Below, one piece after another: positions 41,389-50,582 of a stretch of DNA of 64,000 nt. Under the pieces are notes generated by a model. The model was not told where the DNA came from, searched no databases, and was given only the letters and a program-made list of their open reading frames with translations. The stretch comes from Psychromicrobium lacuslunae (lineage in GTDB: Bacteria > Actinomycetota > Actinomycetes > Actinomycetales > Micrococcaceae), in NCBI RefSeq assembly GCF_000950575.1, contig NZ_CP011005.1, forward strand, positions 1,364,001 through 1,428,000, given 5' to 3'. The position numbers and the translations under genes were made by a program. Numbering within the stretch: the stretch's first letter is position 1; each line of letters begins with the position of its first letter.

Positions 41389-42609
41389 CTAGCCGACGTC
41401 AACTGGCACCTCGATCACTGCGGTGTGCTGATTCCGATGCCCCGGCCGGAAGCCCTTCTTACTCGCGAGCACGACGAGCAGGGCGAGAATGGCCAGACCC
41501 GTCAATATCCACGGGAAGCTGAGCACACCGAGCGGTTCAAGCAGTAGACCACCGAGCAAGCCGCCACCGGCAACCGCAAGATTAAAGACGGTAACCAACA
41601 TTGACAACGCCACATCCGCGTCGGCACCGCCAATATCGGCCGTAGCGGTCTGCAAAATAGTGGGGGCACCACCGAAGGTCAGTCCCCACAGAGCGATGCT
41701 AATAAAAGCCACTGGCGCGGAGTGCACCGCGAAGGCCAGCACGAGTGCCGCCACTGTGAAGCCCGCCAGCGAAATAATTGACAGCAGACGCAGCGCGGCG
41801 TCCACTTTCCAACCCACCAGCCAAACCCCGATCACCGATGAGATGCCGAAGACGGCGAGAAGTATTCCGGTATTTTTGGCTCCGATTCCGGTTGCTTCTG
41901 CAAAGGGCGCGATGTAGGTATAGAGCACGTTATGAGCCAAGATCCACAAAAAGATCACGCTGAGCACTGGAACCAGACCAGGAATCCGGAGCACCTGGAG
42001 CACCGAGCGCTGCCCCTCCCCTTGCTGACCGGGCACATTAGGAACCACCGCCAATATCCAGATGAATAGCAATGCGGCAATGCCTGACATCACCCAGAAC
42101 ACGCCTCGCCAGTCGAGGAAACTGCCGAGCCAGGCACCAATCGGCACCCCAAGACATAGCGCGATCGGCTGACCAACGCCGACGACCGCCATCGCCTTGC
42201 CCTGTTGCTCAACCGGCACCATGCGTCGGGCGTAGCCTGCCAGCACACCCCAGATCACCCCTGCGGCCATACCAGCGATAAATCGGGCTCCCATGGTCAG
42301 TAGGTAGCTGCCTGAGAAAGCCGTAATTGAGTTGAAAATGAAGAGCGCGGCAATGGTGCCTAAGAGTAGCGGGCGACGGTCCCAGCGACGTGTTGCTGTC
42401 ACCACCGGAATTGCCGCCAGCACCGAGCCAAGTGCATAAAGTGTCAGTAATTGCCCGGCCAGACCTTCAGAAACACCGAGATCCCTGCTGATCTCCGGCA
42501 ACAAACCGGAGGGCATATTCTCGGTCATAATGGTCAGGAAGCCACTGACCGTGAACGATAGAAGGCCCAGTAGCGGAAAGGTTGCCGCGCGCGTAACCGT
42601 GGTGGTCAT
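41389..42609 (-). CDS. MFS exporter (DHA1, 12-TM) of the NRPS cluster
   Basis: The 406-residue membrane protein has about 12 hydrophobic segments and the AraJ/YdhP-like start LSFTVSGFLTIMTENMPSGLLPEISRDLGVSEGLAGQLLTLYALGSVLAAIPV. It also has the motif-A-like TRRWDRRPLLLG and the antiporter region GVGQPIALCLGVPIGAWLG. ATG 42609 overlaps the NRPS stop (TAATG), so it is translationally coupled and probably exports the NRPS product. The longer in-frame extension to 42714 lies inside the NRPS and is not used. Confidence 0.88.
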   Translation of the reverse strand: MTTTVTRAATFPLLGLLSFTVSGFLTIMTENMPSGLLPEISRDLGVSEGLAGQLLTLYALGSVLAAIPVVTATRRWDRRPLLLGTIAALFIFNSITAFSGSYLLTMGARFIAGMAAGVIWGVLAGYARRMVPVEQQGKAMAVVGVGQPIALCLGVPIGAWLGSFLDWRGVFWVMSGIAALLFIWILAVVPNVPGQQGEGQRSVLQVLRIPGLVPVLSVIFLWILAHNVLYTYIAPFAEATGIGAKNTGILLAVFGISSVIGVWLVGWKVDAALRLLSIISLAGFTVAALVLAFAVHSAPVAFISIALWGLTFGGAPTILQTATADIGGADADVALSMLVTVFNLAVAGGGLLGGLLLEPLGVLSFPWILTGLAILALLVVLASKKGFRPGHRNQHTAVIEVPVDVG

Positions 42610-45600
42610 TATTTTGCCCCCTCCGGCTGATGGGCCAAGGGACCGTATTCCGGCTGTTTCACCAAGTCGCCCTTGGCTGCCTGAATATTTGGTCCATAAA
42701 CCTCTAACATCCACCGGCTTTGCTCCACCGATTCCATGGTGATTGACACCGCGCCGCTCTCTACGGTGAAGGTTTCCTCAATCAGGATGGTGAGCTTGTC
42801 GATGAATTCCTTCCGGCTATCTTGAGAGAACGCGGTGGGAAAATGTTGCACGGTGATATGCGGCATACTCTTTGCTTTCTTGGTGGGAGACTCTGCTGGC
42901 TGGCCGCTCAGTTCTTGGAGTACTGAGTCGGCAGTGGCTTGGACATAGGGTTCTTGCAGGATCTGATAGTGGTTATCGTGAAGTTTCTTACTCTTGAGCT
43001 TCACTTCGGTGACCAGTCCTTCTAAGAACGAATCGTCGTCTTCAACCGCCCTGAACAAGGTCACCGGCACTTCGACCTTGCGTTCGGAGAGTTCTTTGAA
43101 GGTGTACTCGAAGGAGTAGGACTTTTCGACCAGATCGATGATTCGGTAAGCCAGTTCATGATCAAGGGTCAGCGAAGCGCTGATCGCGGCGAGGAAACTG
43201 TGCTTATCGGTGGTATTTGCCACCACCTCTTCCACTTCCTCTCCATCGGCGCGAGAGAAGAACACCGAGTACAGCAAGCGGATAAATCGGGCGTCTTGGT
43301 AGGGTCCTTCGGCCTCCGGATTCAACGCCACCGCGCCAGTATCAGGCTGGCCGGGAGCCAGCAATATCAGGGCAGCCACCCGATCACCGGCTTGCTCAAG
43401 CTGATAAGCCACTTCAAAGGCGACCCGCGCCCCGAAGGAGTAGCCAATCAGGGTGTAGGGGCCTTCATGCTGTCGACGTTTTATCTCGGCAATGTCCTGG
43501 GCCGCCATCTGCTGAATCGAGGTATCGACAAGTTCGCCCTCATTAAGCCCTGTTGCCTGAACGCCGAAGCAGTCAAAGCCTTTTTCGGCCAGTAGCAAGG
43601 CCAGCCGACGAAGGTTCATCGGGTAGCCACCCAGGCCGGGCCAGAGGTGAACACGCTGCCCCGAGCTGGGAGCCAATGAAACAACCCTGGCGCTCTTAGC
43701 CTGGGCGCCATGCTTAGCCCGGGCGGCAGCCTGCTTGGCCACTGTGTCATCCTCAAACACGTTCTGGATCGGCATGCTGAACCCCAGCCGCTTCTTGAAC
43801 GCCTGGACTAGTTGAGCGGCGGTCAGCGAACTGCCTCCCAGCGAGAAGAATGACTCTTCTACCGAGACCTGCTCACGACCGAGTAATTCAGCCCAGATCT
43901 GGGCGATCTCCTCTTCACCGGACGATCTCGGTGCGATGAATTCGCTAGCCTGCCAGCTAGCGCTCTGCTCCTTCTCTTCGGCTTCAATTTTCTTCCGGTC
44001 GATCTTTCCGTTGGGCAGCCTGGGCAGTTCCCGTCTGATCCGAATCGCGTCCGGCACCATGTAGTGCGGCAACATATTGGCAATATCTGCGGCAATGATC
44101 TCGGCCGGCCCTCGCATATGTACGGCATCTTCATCCATGCCCTGATGAGCTATCTGATGATCAGAAATCACCCCACCGACCGCGAAGTAGGAAGAGATCG
44201 CATCGTTCTGCATAAATGCTTTGATCCGCCGCGCGGTGGCTAGATCCCTACCGCTCAGCGAAGAGTAACCAGAGGACATCAGTCCAAGGTTGAGCTTATT
44301 CATTTCCGCTCGTTGCAGGGCACGGCCCAATGAGACATAGTGCTCTGGTTCTTGTCCGGCATGCAGAATCAACCCGAAACTGGCTTGCTGGTAAATGCTC
44401 TGGTTAATCGCGATGACATCTTTTCGCCGAATCAGCTGACTGCCAGTGAGCTGAACCAGACCATTTCCGCTGGGCTGATAGACGCCCTTTTCAGCTTCAG
44501 CATCGCCCAGCACCTCGACCTTCACTTCCACCGCCAGCAGCCGATCAGCGAGCTGTTCGGTGTTGGTTAAGAACCAGCTGCCAATTGCTATGTAGTCCTG
44601 CTGATCGGGGATCAGCAGTTGCTCAAGATCAACCGCAATGTTTTCGCGAGCCGTCAGTCGGTGCCCGGTGGCCGGTGCCACGGTGTCCAATAAACCGAGC
44701 AGATGACCGGCCTCGAAGTTGAGCACCTCGTCGACATTCGTACTATAGACGGAGGTGATCACCGAACGCTGCCCGATTAAGATCACTTCCACTCCAGAGC
44801 GCGGTCCGTAATGGTCTGCGACGCGTTGCAAGCGGTCGCTGGAGGGGTTGAGGTAGTAAGTACCATCAGCGATGTCTTCGAGTCCGGAAATCCCCAGGAA
44901 GACCTGGACGCCGTACAGTGCCCCCGGAGAGGCGTAGGCGTATTTGGGCAACAGCCGAGTATCGCTTTCAAAACGAGTTAGCGAGCGGCAAAGGAACCCC
45001 AGGGTCTGCCGATTCCATCCTGCTGGGAACTCTTCAACCAGTTCTCGCGGCTTCCGGACCAGTTCCGCAAGGGCCTGAAGCTGCTGCCGATCAGCTCGCT
45101 CCGCTTGGTAATGCCGATAGGTTTTTCTGGCAAAAGCCAGTTGACGGAGTTCTTGCTCCGCTTTCACACTGACCGGCAAAGCCAGCCCGGGATCGTTGAA
45201 ATCTTTTCTCACGCCGAGCCCGGAAAGCTGGGCTTTGACCTGCACTCGACTGGATTTGGACTGGTGATGATCGCCGTGCACACCCTGGTCCATCAGGGCA
45301 GCTTCATGCGGATTCAATTCCACATAAGCAACCAAACGGGGATCACCGCTTTCTGGGTTCTTCGCCACCATTACTTCGGCGTGCCGAACCCAGTCATGAT
45401 GCCGTACAGTTTCAGCGATCTCTCCCAGTTCAATGCGATGCCCGCGAACTTTCACCTGGTCGTCATTGCGGCCTTTGAAGAAATATTCTGAGCCGCGCCG
45501 ACCGACCAGGTCACCGGTTCGGTAAAACCGCACCGACTCCCCTTCAAACTCGAGTTCAACGAAGCGCTGCTCAGTCTGTTCTGGTCGATTTCGGTACCCT

Positions 45601-46694
45601 TCGGCGAGCTGCGGCCCGGCGATGGCCAATTCCCCCGTGAGCTGATCGCTGAGACCAGCATTTTCATCAAGCAAGACGAATCGCAAGCCTGGCACCGGCT
45701 GGCCGATCGCTACGGTTGAACTCTTTGTCGCGGTATCGCGCTCAGCGTCAAAACGATGGAAGGCGGCATTGATAGTGGCTTCGGTCGGGCCGTAAAGGTT
45801 GACAATGGCAGCTTGCGGTAGCTGGCTCTGCAAGGTAGCCGCCAGCTTGACCGGTAGCGCCTCTCCCCCGCTGCAAAGGTAACTCAGCCCGCTTTGAGCG
45901 AAATCTTCATCTTCGCTCAAAGCCTGCAGCAAGGTTGGTACGGCCTGCAGGTGGCTTACCCCATGTTCCTTGATGGTGGCCAGCAGTTCGAAGGGATCAC
46001 GATATGCCTCGGCGCCCGCTGCGACCAGCGTCGCGCCGGTGGCGTTCGCTAGCAATTCCCACTGCGCGGCATCGAAACTGATCGGGGTCTTATGAATAAT
46101 TCTGGCCTGAGAGTTCAGCTCCAACTCGGTGTTGATCCAGGCCATTTGGTGAGCCAGCGCCCGATGAGAGACTTCCACCCCTTTGGGATGACCGGTCGAA
46201 CCCGAGGTGTAAAGCACATATGCCAAGGAGTCGATAACAGCCAGGTTCTGCACTGGTCGGTCAACGGCAATTTCGGCAAGCTGATGCGAATCAGGCACCC
46301 TGAGAATGCTCAAGCCTAGGTCGCCCAGGATAGCGGTGGCTTCATCGGCCAATTGTTCGGGGACCAGCACGGCGTCCACCCCCGCGTCCTCCACCATGTA
46401 CCTGAGTCGTTCATCGGGATAAGTAGGAGCCAGCGGAACGTAGGGTACTCCGCTGCTCAGGCACGCCCAAGCGCTGGCAACCAGCTCAGCTGAAGGTGTG
46501 GCGTAAAGTCCCACCGTATGGGCGCCAGCCGCAGCCAGTTCAAGCTGAAGCGCCGAGACCGCGCGTCCGAGCTCGTGATAGCTCCACTGCGATGATGCGG
46601 TGACCACTGCGGTCGCGTTTGGTTGCCCGGAGAGGCGGCTGAGAAAGGAATTAATAAGAGGTGACGAAGAAGGAGTCAATTCAGAGCACAACAT
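42609..46694 (-). CDS. Indigoidine-synthetase-type NRPS (A-Ox-A-T-TE) with C-terminal tautomerase-like domain
   Basis: This single-module NRPS has 1,361 residues. The adenylation domain begins near residue 20: A3 LYTSGSTGHPKG (161-172), A5 NLYGPTEATI (299-308), A7 YRTGDL (391-396), A8 GRNDDQVKVRGHRIELGEIA (408-427). An FMN nitroreductase/SagB-like oxidase domain is inserted after A8 (about 510-840; KYAYASPGALYGVQVFLGI at 584-602, GTYYLNP at 611). The adenylation domain then resumes with A9/A10 (LPHYMVP; LPNGKIDRKK). A carrier domain follows with Ser956 in ESFFSLGGSSL, then a thioesterase with Ser1086 in GYSFG. This layout is that of glutamine-oxidising indigoidine synthetases (BpsA/IndC). From Met1277 a PptA/4-oxalocrotonate-tautomerase-like domain starts MPHITVQHFP and runs to the end. 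Substrate glutamine and product indigoidine are inference; no PPTase gene is seen in the window. Confidence 0.9.
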   Translation of the reverse strand: MLCSELTPSSSPLINSFLSRLSGQPNATAVVTASSQWSYHELGRAVSALQLELAAAGAHTVGLYATPSAELVASAWACLSSGVPYVPLAPTYPDERLRYMVEDAGVDAVLVPEQLADEATAILGDLGLSILRVPDSHQLAEIAVDRPVQNLAVIDSLAYVLYTSGSTGHPKGVEVSHRALAHQMAWINTELELNSQARIIHKTPISFDAAQWELLANATGATLVAAGAEAYRDPFELLATIKEHGVSHLQAVPTLLQALSEDEDFAQSGLSYLCSGGEALPVKLAATLQSQLPQAAIVNLYGPTEATINAAFHRFDAERDTATKSSTVAIGQPVPGLRFVLLDENAGLSDQLTGELAIAGPQLAEGYRNRPEQTEQRFVELEFEGESVRFYRTGDLVGRRGSEYFFKGRNDDQVKVRGHRIELGEIAETVRHHDWVRHAEVMVAKNPESGDPRLVAYVELNPHEAALMDQGVHGDHHQSKSSRVQVKAQLSGLGVRKDFNDPGLALPVSVKAEQELRQLAFARKTYRHYQAERADRQQLQALAELVRKPRELVEEFPAGWNRQTLGFLCRSLTRFESDTRLLPKYAYASPGALYGVQVFLGISGLEDIADGTYYLNPSSDRLQRVADHYGPRSGVEVILIGQRSVITSVYSTNVDEVLNFEAGHLLGLLDTVAPATGHRLTARENIAVDLEQLLIPDQQDYIAIGSWFLTNTEQLADRLLAVEVKVEVLGDAEAEKGVYQPSGNGLVQLTGSQLIRRKDVIAINQSIYQQASFGLILHAGQEPEHYVSLGRALQRAEMNKLNLGLMSSGYSSLSGRDLATARRIKAFMQNDAISSYFAVGGVISDHQIAHQGMDEDAVHMRGPAEIIAADIANMLPHYMVPDAIRIRRELPRLPNGKIDRKKIEAEEKEQSASWQASEFIAPRSSGEEEIAQIWAELLGREQVSVEESFFSLGGSSLTAAQLVQAFKKRLGFSMPIQNVFEDDTVAKQAAARAKHGAQAKSARVVSLAPSSGQRVHLWPGLGGYPMNLRRLALLLAEKGFDCFGVQATGLNEGELVDTSIQQMAAQDIAEIKRRQHEGPYTLIGYSFGARVAFEVAYQLEQAGDRVAALILLAPGQPDTGAVALNPEAEGPYQDARFIRLLYSVFFSRADGEEVEEVVANTTDKHSFLAAISASLTLDHELAYRIIDLVEKSYSFEYTFKELSERKVEVPVTLFRAVEDDDSFLEGLVTEVKLKSKKLHDNHYQILQEPYVQATADSVLQELSGQPAESPTKKAKSMPHITVQHFPTAFSQDSRKEFIDKLTILIEETFTVESGAVSITMESVEQSRWMLEVYGPNIQAAKGDLVKQPEYGPLAHQPEGAK

Positions 46695-46762: not shown

Positions 46763-47500
46763 TCAGTGCTTTTCGAAAAGTGAACCCCAATATGAAAATT
46801 GGTCCTTTATACCTAGGGACCGCAATGCGTGCCAGTAGAGCACGACGTTATTAGACAGCACGGGCTTGCCGAGGAAGATTTCGGCCGCCGCAGCAAAACG
46901 AGCCATCGGCATGTTTGTACCGACCTGCACAATGGCTTGCACCTCGTCGCTATTGACCGCCAAGGTAGCCTCTCGGAGCTGATCGAAGTTAATGTCTCCA
47001 ATCGAGGCAGGCGTTTGTGCGCCGAGCCCCCTGATGCCAACCACCTGGTACTCCATATCGTCGAAGTAACGCTGAACCGTGGTATCGCCAATCGCAAGGT
47101 ATGGTGTCAGCACGGCAATTCGGCTGATATCCAGAGCTTTAAAGGCAGCGGTGAAGGCATCTGCACTGGTGAGTACCGGAGTGCCTTTCGCGTCCTGCAC
47201 GAATTCAGCGACCACCCGGTCCTGATTTTCCTTACCCGCCCAGAACCCTTCGGGGGACACTCCGACCGCAATGATGTCCGGGCTGGCGGTACTGAGCGAT
47301 TCAATCGCAGGGGTAGCCGAGGCTCGGATATCGGAGAGCACTTGATCGAAGCCGGGTTGCTTGACCATTGACGAGTTTCTGATCGTCATCCGCGAGATGT
47401 GGTTGGTCACCCTGTGTGGACGCAAATCATCGATCTCAGGCTGGGCGGTGGTATTTGTGGAGGGAACCACATAGCCGATAGTGGCGCGAATGTTCTGCAT
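46763..47500 (-). CDS. Maleate isomerase / Asp-Glu racemase superfamily protein
   Basis: The 245-residue protein resembles maleate cis-trans isomerases and arylmalonate decarboxylases: IGYVVPSTNTTAQPEIDDL at the N-terminus, SPDIIAVGVSPEGFW mid-protein, AVLTPYLAIGDTTVQRYFDDMEYQVVGIRGLG, and VQVGTNMPMARFAAAAEIFLGKPVLSNNVVLYWHALRSLGI. The family normally uses two Cys; here the usual catalytic positions read as GVSPEG and QVGTNMP with no Cys, so the chemistry may differ or be lost. It shares its start region with the upstream dehydrogenase stop (coupled) and is 68 bp before the NRPS. Confidence 0.8.
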   Translation of the reverse strand: MQNIRATIGYVVPSTNTTAQPEIDDLRPHRVTNHISRMTIRNSSMVKQPGFDQVLSDIRASATPAIESLSTASPDIIAVGVSPEGFWAGKENQDRVVAEFVQDAKGTPVLTSADAFTAAFKALDISRIAVLTPYLAIGDTTVQRYFDDMEYQVVGIRGLGAQTPASIGDINFDQLREATLAVNSDEVQAIVQVGTNMPMARFAAAAEIFLGKPVLSNNVVLYWHALRSLGIKDQFSYWGSLFEKH

Positions 47501-48396
47501 CAGATACCACTAGCCGGTGACAGCTGCTCGGCCAGGTAGCTAGCAATCATGTCTTGCGATCCCAAGCCGGACTGGCTCGCCGCTCGGTAACGTTCTTGGC
47601 TGGCTTCAGCCACCGGTAGCCAGGCTCCGGACTGCTGAGCAGCTTCCTCGACCAATCCAGCATCCTTGAGCGCATTATCAATGCTGAAGGTGGTGCCGAA
47701 GTCGTCATTCACAATGGCGCCTAGCTTAGAGCTGACAAATGGTGAGTCCAGCGGTCCGCCACTGATCGCCTCTTGAAGTTGCTGAAGCGGTAAGTTGAGG
47801 GCTGCCGCTAATTTCGCTGCCTCGGCAACGCCGTGAGTCAGCGCGCCAATGAAGGAGTTCACCACGACTTTCAACGCGCTGGCCCCACCTGGTTGATCGC
47901 CCACCCAGAGCGTCTTTTTAGCTATCGCCTCGAAAACCGGTGTGACCGCGTCGTGCAGTGATTCCTCCGCCGCCGCGAGCACCACCAATTGGGCATTTTC
48001 AGCCGGAGCCTTGGAGCCCAGAATCGGCGCATCCACCAAGGCAATTTTTCGCTCAGCAGCCCAGTCCTGAATGCGAGCTATTTCCTTCAGTCCGACGGTG
48101 CTGATCTGCACCAGAATCGCCTCGGCCTTGAGCTTCGCCTCGGCTGATTGCAAAGCCTCGAGCACCGCATTCCCGTCTTTCAGAACGGTCAGCACAAAAT
48201 CCGCTCCCTCAACGGCCGCGGCAGGATCCGAATGAACAGTGATTCCGTCAGCTTTAAGCCCTTCGGCCTTTGCTATGGTGCGGTTCCACACCGAAACTTG
48301 GTATCCCGCTTTCTGTAAATTCCGGGCAATCGGAGCGCCGATAATACCAGTGCCGAGAACTGCGATCTTCCTCGGGTTTTCCGTGTCCTGCATCAT
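47500..48396 (-). CDS. NAD(P)-dependent beta-hydroxyacid dehydrogenase (3-hydroxyisobutyrate dehydrogenase-like)
   Basis: The 298-residue enzyme has the Rossmann loop IAVLGTGIIGAPIARNLQKAGYQVSVWNRT, the family segment FVLTVLKDGNAVLEAL, the substrate loop VDAPILGSKAPAENAQLVVLAAAEE (usually DAPVSGG, so modified here), and the catalytic Lys region GGASALKVVVNSFIG. It could reduce a hydroxy acid or an imine; imine reductases belong to the same superfamily. It is first in the operon after the TetR gene, with AAAGG upstream of the ATG. Confidence 0.87.
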   Translation of the reverse strand: MMQDTENPRKIAVLGTGIIGAPIARNLQKAGYQVSVWNRTIAKAEGLKADGITVHSDPAAAVEGADFVLTVLKDGNAVLEALQSAEAKLKAEAILVQISTVGLKEIARIQDWAAERKIALVDAPILGSKAPAENAQLVVLAAAEESLHDAVTPVFEAIAKKTLWVGDQPGGASALKVVVNSFIGALTHGVAEAAKLAAALNLPLQQLQEAISGGPLDSPFVSSKLGAIVNDDFGTTFSIDNALKDAGLVEEAAQQSGAWLPVAEASQERYRAASQSGLGSQDMIASYLAEQLSPASGI

Positions 48397-48467: not shown

Positions 48468-48491
48468 TGAATGTTAAAAAATGTTCATTCA
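48468..48491. promoter_or_regulatory. A/T-rich inverted repeat overlapping the TetR stop codon
   Basis: TGAATG (48468-48473) and CATTCA (48486-48491) flank an A-rich centre. The element spans the stop of the TetR gene and the start of the 88-bp gap before the operon. It is a second candidate operator, or a terminator-like hairpin of the regulator gene. Confidence 0.45.
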
Positions 48492-49105
48492 TCAATCAGC
48501 GCGAGGGCGGTATCTATCGCCGCCTGCAGCCAGGCCTCCCGCGCCTCCGACCCCATCCCCTTGGCAATCACTCGCATTCCTTGCACTAAAGTCACTACTG
48601 TAATCGCGGCGGTCTCCGAATCTCTGCCGACGGCGAGATTCCTTAACTGGGCGTTACGAAAAAGTACCGCTAGAGAGTGTTTCAACATCTCTAGATTGAA
48701 TGCGGTCAGCTTGGTGATGGACTCATCTCGACCCGCGATCTCCAAGGCGGCATTCGCAACCATACAGCCATATCCCTGGGTATCACTCAGTTCTTCGTCT
48801 TTGATTCCGCTCAGGAACGCCGCCAAGGCAGCTCGCGGATCCGAGGAGGTTTGCAGCTCCAAATAGACATCTGACTGCAATTCGTCGTAACGCTTAAGCG
48901 CGGCTAGGTACAGCTCACGCTTATTGATGAAGGTGTTGTACAGGCTACTTCTGGTCAGTCCCGTAGCCTTGGTCAGATCTTCAATCGAAGTATCCGCGTA
49001 ACCCAGCCGCCAAAACACCTTCATTGCAGAGTCGAGCACCTCGACTTTGTCGAAACCAATGCTTCGCACACTACCCCCAAAATCTTTTCGTACCAATTGT
49101 TCCAA
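48485..49105 (-). CDS. TetR/AcrR-family regulator of the NRPS cluster
   Basis: The 206-residue protein has the N-terminal HTH VLDSAMKVFWRLGYADTSIEDLTKATGLTRSSLYNTFINKRELYLAALKRY (residues ~24-74) and a C-terminal ligand domain of the YjgJ/TetR_C type. It is on the same strand as, and immediately upstream of, the dehydrogenase-isomerase-NRPS-MFS genes, so it is the likely local repressor. The inducer is unknown. Confidence 0.87.
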   Translation of the reverse strand: MEQLVRKDFGGSVRSIGFDKVEVLDSAMKVFWRLGYADTSIEDLTKATGLTRSSLYNTFINKRELYLAALKRYDELQSDVYLELQTSSDPRAALAAFLSGIKDEELSDTQGYGCMVANAALEIAGRDESITKLTAFNLEMLKHSLAVLFRNAQLRNLAVGRDSETAAITVVTLVQGMRVIAKGMGSEAREAWLQAAIDTALALIDE

Positions 49106-49216: not shown

Positions 49217-49660
49217 CTAGAAGTCCCCGGGTGCTACCTGCAGCACTGGTAAGCCAATCGCCCGCCACATATCGACAACCTGCTGCCTGTCGTCGAAGAC
49301 CGCACGGACATTGTATTTTCCACGAATATGCCTGTTGAAAAGTTCATATTTGACCGTGGCATCGACCCTGCCGTCCGCCTTGGCTCGGTGGAAAACATCG
49401 ACGAACTGAAACCCTTGGTCCTGCAACCAGGCTCGGGTCTCCACCGCACATCCCTCGGTTCGTCCAGTGACGAAGATCAGCTCACGCCCGCTGCGCATCA
49501 AATCAAAGAGGATATCCGCGATTGGCTGATTCAAACGATCGCTACCGACTTTCCGTTCGTCGTAAGGGTTACGACCAGCCAGCAGCGCCACGGTACCGTC
49601 AATGTCGACAAGATAGATCTCGGGCAACCCAGGAGTTGGCTGCCAAACCTCCCATTCCAT
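49217..49660 (-). CDS. Polynucleotide-kinase 3'-phosphatase-like HAD protein
   Basis: The 147-residue product has HAD motif I LVDIDGTVALL (residues ~15-25), followed by GRNPYDERKVGSDRLNQPIADIL, FVTGR (motif II) and a C-terminal AVFDDRQQVVDMWR (motif IV). This pattern is that of the phosphatase domain of T4 Pnkp; the kinase half is absent. I chose ATG 49660, preceded by GGAAGGA, over the in-frame codon at 49720. Possible roles are nucleic-acid end healing or a small-molecule phosphatase. The gap 49661-49922 holds GC-rich repeats but no gene. Confidence 0.8.
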   Translation of the reverse strand: MEWEVWQPTPGLPEIYLVDIDGTVALLAGRNPYDERKVGSDRLNQPIADILFDLMRSGRELIFVTGRTEGCAVETRAWLQDQGFQFVDVFHRAKADGRVDATVKYELFNRHIRGKYNVRAVFDDRQQVVDMWRAIGLPVLQVAPGDF

Positions 49661-49870
49661 CTCTGTCCTTCCAAGCCTTCCTAAGGCATCCAAGTCTTTC
49701 CCTGCGCAGCTCTGTACCACTCCACTTTTGGCCGGGCGGCAGCCCCGGCGTTAATCGTAGTTCAGCCTTGCTCAGGAAGTCTGGTTACTCCGCCATGATC
49801 TGTTGAAACCTTGGCGAAGATCCTCGGCCAGCGTGCTGTCGAACAGCCGAACAAAAATGCCACCAAATAG

Positions 49871-49905
49871 AGATGCCGCCGGGGCGGCAGCCCCCGGCGG
49901 CATCT
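49871..49905 (-). terminator. Terminator hairpin after the acid phosphatase gene
   Basis: GAGATGCCGCCGGGG pairs with the mirrored arm ending at 49905, around a 5-6-nt loop. It begins about 18 bp after the stop at 49923. A related GGGCGGCAGCCCC word recurs at about 49735. Confidence 0.8.
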
Positions 49906-49922
49906 CCTTGAGTTAGCGGCGG

Positions 49923-50582
49923 TTACTGCAGTGTGCCATCGTAATCGGGAAGCTTATAGGTTTTCTCAGCATAGCCTCCGGCCAAGTCAGTTGGCCGGTT
50001 ACCGACATTCGCAATGATCGAATAACCGCGGTCCACGATATCGGCTCGACTTGCGGTTTTGAACTCCTGCACCGGAATCCGATGGTCGCCTGTTTGATGA
50101 TAAATTTCAAAAACCGGATACCCCGCGTTAGTTAGTGCCTGCTTCGTAGACGAATTGCTGGTGCGGTCACCTTGGTAAAGCCGGTTGCTAATGAAGAAGA
50201 CCCTCACCCCGAGGGAGTCAGCCTTTTTCGCCAGTGCCAAGGTGGCATCAATCGCGGGAATATTGCTACGGTCCTGAGCGAAATCTGTCGCCAGGCTAGT
50301 GTCATCAATATCGAAAACAATGGCTAGTTTCTCGCCGTCCTGTTGCTTGTCGACGCGCTCCTGCAGATAGTCGAGGGATCCGTCCAGTACGGTGTCCACA
50401 TCAGCCAGCCAGTCCTTGGGCTGAATCCCTTTGAAGGCCTGCAGCCCCTCAGTGGAGCTCACCACGGAGGAGAGAGCCGTGCCGGGCGCGGCCGACGAAA
50501 TACCTGCGGTCACCCCCAACACCCCCATTGAAAGTGCCGCAATAGCAATCGCTCCGGTAGCTTTCTTTACTAAAACTTTCAT
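49923..50582 (-). CDS. Secreted HAD-type acid phosphatase
   Basis: The 219-residue protein has a Sec signal peptide (MKVLVKKATGAIAIAALSMG ... SSA|APG). The HAD acid phosphatase fold follows: the LAIVFDIDDTSLATDF motif with two Asp, FISNR, and IIANVGNRPTDLAGGYAEKTYKLPDY as the terminal motif. This is the plant acid phosphatase/class B-like family that releases phosphate outside the membrane. It is a single gene with its own terminator. Confidence 0.88.
   Translation of the reverse strand: MKVLVKKATGAIAIAALSMGVLGVTAGISSAAPGTALSSVVSSTEGLQAFKGIQPKDWLADVDTVLDGSLDYLQERVDKQQDGEKLAIVFDIDDTSLATDFAQDRSNIPAIDATLALAKKADSLGVRVFFISNRLYQGDRTSNSSTKQALTNAGYPVFEIYHQTGDHRIPVQEFKTASRADIVDRGYSIIANVGNRPTDLAGGYAEKTYKLPDYDGTLQ

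Follow-up and report, generated by a model that had tools for sequence, protein, structure and literature searches.

How can an enzyme whose catalysis depends on an N-terminal proline work when it forms the C-terminal end of a large protein? The question is raised by a gene of Psychromicrobium lacuslunae located in a stretch of 64,000 nucleotides (contig NZ_CP011005.1, positions 1,364,001 to 1,428,000), here called the window and used for all coordinates. The gene, on the minus strand at 42609..46694, is a single open reading frame (ORF) that starts with ATG, contains zero internal stops and encodes 1361 amino acids (aa). Based on the ORF, Pfam matches and motifs, it combines a nonribosomal peptide synthetase (NRPS) of the indigoidine type with an in-frame tautomerase domain, corresponding to an igiD::igiF type. 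The order of the adenylation (A), oxidase (Ox), peptidyl carrier (PCP) and thioesterase (TE) domains is A(N)-Ox-A(C)-PCP-TE; the next 85 residues resemble PptA and 4-oxalocrotonate tautomerase (4-OT) and are here termed Tau. Catalysis in the tautomerase superfamily rests on an N-terminal proline. In Tau, this proline stands after a retained start codon and is buried in the long form. The first-pass annotation of the sequence had singled out the buried proline, rightly in our view, and had offered three solutions: translation that also starts internally, cleavage of the domain, or a different way of working. Start codons and Shine-Dalgarno sequences are kept throughout the family, and internal initiation is therefore favoured over the other two proposals. 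We consider it likely that an internal start in the fused Tau family also yields a free tautomerase with an exposed Pro1.

The Tau domain comprises residues 1277-1361 (42609..42866, minus strand) and can be read as an 85-aa gene of its own that opens with ATG-CCG (Met-Pro). The predicted in-frame ATG at 42864..42866 on the minus strand, followed by proline, was confirmed in the sequence and is the candidate internal start codon. Searched alone, residues 1277-1361 matched the PptA model NF002324 with E=1.4e-13 over 1-74, at 51.2 bits (curated cut-off, 83), and the Pfam Tautomerase model at 0.0051, with 17.1 bits (gathering score, 22); both scores fall short of these thresholds. Neither model was among the matches listed when the whole 1361-aa protein was the query. 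Tau in the window is thus a member of the tautomerase superfamily but not a PptA equivalog as defined by NF002324, since its score is under the curated cut-off. An alignment was made of the window's domain and 48 full-length domains chosen out of 60; all 49 match NF002324, and their profile matches E. coli YdcE/PptA at 8.7e-19, to which the window's domain as a single query shows a weak match (0.054). The AlphaFold2 model of the domain has a mean predicted local distance difference test score of 89.7 and a predicted template modelling (TM) score of 0.73. It displays a predicted beta-alpha-beta fold whose sole match in the PDB at E <= 0.001 is YdcE (1gyj), with TM scores of 0.81/0.90. YdcE is thereby the closest solved fold, and its chain starts at the proline; it differs from Tau in being free-standing, and the identity in the structural alignment is 20%. 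Together, the profiles and the model bear out the proposed C-terminal tautomerase-like domain of about 85 residues.

Related loci were gathered via the oxidase region, blind to the presence of Tau. The sources were the best 80 of 332 relatives (named loci), 65 Streptomyces matches in 392 genomes, 25 matches in 250 genomes of one family, 3 + 13 additional matches and 6 of 37 plasmid records. The total was 193 loci including the window, with 172 distinct ORFs. Tau was located in the same ORF in 70 loci and in another ORF of the locus in 69; the remaining 54, in which none was found, are an upper bound on Tau-less loci, many loci being short. The 70 in-frame fused ORFs correspond to 53 clusters at 99.5% identity and to 34 at 85%. 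Further genomes, intended as a hold-out, provided 32 new loci, of which 9 were fused; 8 of these were copies already in the set and one (L233) was new, with a TTG start and AAGGAG that fit the internal-start pattern. A wider sample of the phylum, covering 316 genomes, contained 4 with matches, all of them genomes already in the set.

The codon that precedes the catalytic proline is a start codon (ATG, GTG or TTG) in 67 of the 70 fused ORFs, and in 66 of 69 if the window is left aside. The individual counts are ATG 33, GTG 30, TTG 4 and one each of CGA, CGC and GCG; by 85%-identity clusters they are 15 ATG, 15 GTG, 2 TTG and 2 other, which gives 32/34 with a start codon. The proline is kept in all 67 start-codon rows, and Tau is 74-85 aa long in the 62 of these whose end lies within the locus. 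Codon usage, counted in stop-to-stop frames, does not predict this pattern: 61% of the valine codons in the fused frames are GTC and 34% are GTG, and TTG makes up 3.5% of the leucine codons. As a column control we used 50 distinct start-codon rows, 24 of them with GTG. In each of the 12 other columns that encode valine in all 24 GTG rows, at least one row has a codon other than GTG. There are 14 mixed columns with only Met, Val or Leu, and the Tau start alone is restricted to start codons. Across the aligned family, the start codon at Tau is thus conserved against codon usage. The three rows that have another codon contain truncated Tau domains of 50, 50 and 55 aa. In these loci (L079, L101 and L094) the internal start codon has been lost along with part of the domain, and in L094 the catalytic proline is replaced by alanine.

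A second signal lies upstream of this codon. As a measure of Shine-Dalgarno strength, we took the energy with which the 9-mer ending at -6 pairs with the 16S tail, and set the threshold at -5 kcal/mol. At this normal spacing, 31 of 32 clusters and 66 of 67 rows reach -5, the sole exception being the window; at any other offset tested, the fraction of clusters is at most 0.53. The mean energy is -8.9 for fused Tau and -8.7 for 64 separate Tau genes, as compared to -3.9 for 2071 start-type codons located elsewhere in frame within these ORFs. When each fused Tau was compared with synonymous shuffles of its own sequence, the energy was lower than the shuffle mean in 39 of 45 cases. Two of three groups show lowered synonymous change over the stretch from codon -5 to codon 0 (12/732 and 9/701 windows are as low), and the rare arginine codon AGA, which makes up 2.2% of the Arg codons in these rows, occurs at -5 in 11 of the 16 rows of one group.

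Several observations weigh against internal initiation or reduce the force of these counts. The rows share ancestry, so that the counts are not independent, and only 3 start-codon changes are needed on the tree. The intended hold-out added no fused ORF other than L233. Most of the Shine-Dalgarno strength survives synonymous shuffling (mean -7.7 vs -8.8) because Lys-Glu and Gln-Glu residues spell the motif, and significance is reached individually in just 1 of 45 cases; the shuffles were therefore dropped as the chief test. The third group showed no synonymous depression (130/737), and the 16S tail used for the pairing was verified in the genome of the window only. Of the 67 rows, the window alone lacks a clear Shine-Dalgarno sequence; its -4.8 kcal/mol is equalled or exceeded in strength at 25% of random positions. 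Finally, mRNA as weakly structured as that around its ATG is not rare among all codons of the ORF (165/1329).

The proposed mechanism is as follows. Judging from its motifs and from characterized relatives, the synthetase would activate L-glutamine, dehydrogenate and cyclize it, and release the monomer of the blue pigment. For IdgS, cyclization by the TE domain before oxidation is supported (PMC10989907). The last 85 codons would constitute a gene nested within the NRPS-Tau ORF. Ribosomes that start at the NRPS start would produce the long NRPS-Tau protein, and others, binding internally immediately upstream of Tau, would start at ATG 42866 and produce a free 85-aa tautomerase. Removal of the initiator methionine would expose the catalytic Pro1. 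The active tautomerase would then be the free form rather than the buried copy, with the released 3-aminoglutarimide or dehydro product as its presumed substrate. We tentatively suggest, as a possibility of lower probability, that one gene encodes two co-assembling proteins, in which the blocked Tau of the long form docks the free Pro1 tautomerase to generate an active oligomer on the synthetase. Judging by titles in the literature, heterohexamers exist in the 4-OT family. If co-assembly is true, the pathway tethers a tautomerase that is chemically unable to work as a plain fusion, and selection would act on the uninterrupted frame as well as on the internal start.

How far this applies to the window was assessed separately. 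The sequence AAGAAAG at 42875..42881 on the minus strand is a weak Shine-Dalgarno-like motif located 8 nt before the ATG; its duplex energy of -4.8 kcal/mol, in an 18-nt region, is indistinguishable from chance. For 12 of the 28 ORF starts in the window, the Shine-Dalgarno sequence is no stronger than this. The mRNA around ATG 42866 is weakly structured in comparison to other in-frame starts (4/87 are as weak). Thus, the family result reaches the window through kinship and not through the window's own ribosome site. That the internal start is used in the window as well seems, on balance, somewhat probable from the sequence comparisons, an estimate held at this level because the window is the sole case with a weak Shine-Dalgarno sequence. 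It may instead be that the start in the window has decayed and that its tautomerase is vestigial or purely fused, as the weakest Shine-Dalgarno sequence of 32 clusters and a Tau match under the curated cut-offs would suggest. We find this rather unlikely, since ATG and proline are kept in a full-length domain with a confident YdcE-like model, and since AAGGAG and ATG are both present in Gordonia soli (L050), the fused relative nearest to the window.

The history of the fusion was reconstructed on two trees. The fused label changes at least 12 times on a tree of 135 rows and at least 11 times on a tree of 54 rows, with 8 and 6 changes, respectively, imposed by starred branches; on neither tree can a gain of the fusion be distinguished from a loss. 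The linker, counted from the TE histidine, ranges from 26 to 51 residues (2 rows were not measurable), and its length has changed at least 6 times inside three supported fused clades. Linker changes in multiples of three were considered as proof of selection on the frame, an argument that is weakened by the fact that fused rows are in frame by definition. The weight therefore rests on L052 being the sole out-of-frame row in these clades. That the frame was kept through the linker changes suggests, although weakly, that the long NRPS-Tau form may matter too, which is the starting point for the co-assembly reading. In L052 (12250-12594), a frame break inside TE separates the NRPS frame from that of Tau, the start of which is intact. 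The break is either real or an assembly error, and we did not use the locus as a natural experiment given the possibility of the latter. Among 57 separate Tau genes adjoining an NRPS gene, 14 follow its stop codon with a gap of 0-15 nt and 6 overlap.

These data also bear on the alternatives to an internal start. Tau could work only in the fused state, as a structural or docking unit or as a catalyst with no need of a free N-terminal amine. In agreement with this, the stop-free frame means that the long protein must be made, the fusion has survived the linker-length changes with a single row out of frame, and a review of minimycin depicts Tau acting within MinA (PMC8724604). However, a purely buried domain needs no start codons, and the start-codon-only rule before the proline of full-length domains, the correctly spaced Shine-Dalgarno sequence and the retention of the proline in 67/67 of these rows would be left unexplained; we regard this alternative as improbable. 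Cleavage of Tau from the long protein by a protease would solve the problem of the buried proline, and the linker is variable, as noted above. Yet cleavage would not conserve start codons, ATG, GTG or TTG and a Shine-Dalgarno sequence are superfluous for it, and the recurrent linker residues observed coincide with codons that spell AAGGAG, CAGGAG or AGAAAGG. Proteolysis is accordingly disfavoured, and we give it hardly any credence.

A further alternative is that the NRPS stop codon was lost by chance, which created the fusion, and that the start signals persist by inertia, without present use. The separate Tau genes that directly follow or overlap the NRPS stop illustrate how stop loss can fuse the two. 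Against inertia, codon choice at other valine positions of these rows has varied freely (0/12 columns are all GTG) and that at the Tau start has not; moreover, ATG, GTG and TTG replace one another and stay within the set of start codons, except in the truncated Tau domains. This explanation appears very unlikely to us, and internal initiation remains the preferred reading.

The fusion as such is not new. The first-pass annotation had left open whether it was described elsewhere, and we rejected it as a novelty since it is in print: a tautomerase fused to IndC of S. chromofuscus (PMC3992020), a discussion of both fused and discrete forms (PMC12766979), a tautomerase motif appended to indigoidine synthetase (PMC5818174), and the minimycin synthetase MinA depicted with a Tau domain (PMC8724604). 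S. chromofuscus IndC and MinA (A-Ox-T-TE-Tau) share the domain order and the C-terminal tautomerase with the window's protein. MinA differs in being accompanied by the C-glycosynthase MinB, whereas the window's gene is located in an igi-type operon in a genome with no match to the IndA family PF04227. In the literature covered, fused Tau in indigoidine and minimycin synthetases is treated as an ordinary domain, despite N-terminal-proline catalysis. An internal start for Tau of IndC or MinA is not mentioned in the parts covered, and PMC12766979 does not use the terms start codon, internal or translation. Our literature searches, which covered sources in part and not the minimycin domain experiments, did not turn up any description of internal initiation in such synthetases. 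What is probably new is that the fused tautomerases appear to be nested genes with start signals of their own. A similar case is Cas11b, which is produced from cas8b by internal in-frame translation (PMC11899642): in both, the C-terminal portion of a large protein is, or would be, produced separately as well, from an internal start. The differences are that Cas11b belongs to a CRISPR system and that its small product was reportedly studied by mass spectrometry, as compared to inference from sequence here. If the internal start is used, constructs for the expression of IndC and MinA may also yield free tautomerase, conclusions about the Tau domain need to be re-read, and the gene for a product of about 9 kDa would be absent from the annotations of such loci.

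The indigoidine-synthetase-like architecture put forward at the outset agrees with the Pfam domains, the oxidase alignment, the motifs and the A-domain code. All features of the synthetase are on the minus strand. The Pfam-matched part of the adenylation domain (PF00501, AMP-binding) spans residues 22-367 (45594..46631). It is followed by the stretch with the oxidase insert at residues 480-845 (44160..45257), defined by alignment and by a Tyr in the column of BpsA residue 665. The peptidyl carrier domain (PP-binding; residues 929-990, 43725..43910) contains the serine motif FSLGGSSL, and the Pfam-matched part of the thioesterase (residues 1017-1143, 43266..43646) contains a GYSFG motif. The synthetase has one carrier and one thioesterase domain, and a Pfam scan up to E 0.1 detected no condensation domain. 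Using what we take to be the nine code positions, the A-domain code is DAWQCGLIN. Seven relatives, including the BpsA-like protein of S. lavendulae, follow the pattern DAWQ(F/A)G(L/V/F)IN; four have DAWQFGLIN and the other three have one-letter variants. The window's A domain thus carries the predicted glutamine-type code of the BpsA/IndC/IgiD family, and glutamine is not excluded by the code.

The same scan of the NRPS, up to E 0.1, provided no Pfam match for the embedded oxidase. This is a gap in detection: the region aligns with BpsA-type proteins and has the Tyr at the BpsA-665 column in 8 of 8 proteins compared, Tyr665 being an active-site residue of the oxidase in BpsA-type synthetases (PMC13405713). 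An indigoidine-like NRPS of Arthrobacter without a recognizable oxidase domain has been reported in the same publication, and claims of oxidase-less indigoidine-like NRPSs may stem from this gap.

The neighbouring genes on the same strand were assigned by Pfam and, for the upstream genes, by comparison with igi. Upstream of NRPS-Tau are genes for an arylmalonate-decarboxylase-like (AMDase-like) protein of igiC type (46763..47500), a hydroxyisobutyrate-dehydrogenase-like protein of igiB type (47500..48396) and a TetR-family regulator of igiR type whose true start is uncertain (48485..49105). Downstream is a gene for an exporter-like protein of the major facilitator superfamily (MFS; 41389..42609), the probable ATG of which overlaps the TAA of NRPS-Tau (TAATG) and has a strong Shine-Dalgarno sequence (-11.2). 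By gene content, this is an indigoidine operon of igi type that consists of TetR, dehydrogenase, AMDase, NRPS with fused tautomerase, and MFS genes. The kinds and order of genes are those of the Leisingera igi operon (igiR-igiB-igiC-igiD-igiF-igiE); in Leisingera M527, by contrast, the tautomerase has a gene to itself, which begins 4 nt past the NRPS stop and precedes the MFS gene. A minimycin-type pathway was ruled out for the window, given the igi-type neighbours and the lack of any match to the IndA/MinB C-glycosynthase family PF04227 in its genome (3 of 14 control genomes match).

Of 7 genomes of the genus, just one, that of the window, contains a full-length match to the synthetase. Another genome of the genus contains a 604-aa ORF (L003; G004:C1:1597928-1599550) that matches NRPS residues 20-549 at 44% and lacks the remaining oxidase. 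In the window's family, a related oxidase was found in 4 of 295 sampled genomes, the window's included. The nearest relative found is that of Gordonia soli (51-52% identity), which is likewise fused and of igi type. The rarity of the synthetase around the window and its nearest relative in Gordonia soli suggest horizontal transfer of the gene.

Among the other loci, the Tau-less NRPS closest to that of the window is located on a Streptomyces microflavus plasmid (L044; NZ_CP054927.1 213497-234582). Its neighbours are two aroA-like genes and asnB, with zero matches to the ind and igi queries, and its product is perhaps different from indigoidine. A group of Streptomyces loci (L053, L055, L058-L061, L063-L065, L067 and L069-L071) has fused Tau and no match to IndA, upp or igi within about 9 kb. 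In the window, two genes for HAD-type phosphatases, one PNKP-like and one acid-phosphatase-B-like, adjoin each other directly upstream of the operon (49217-50582).

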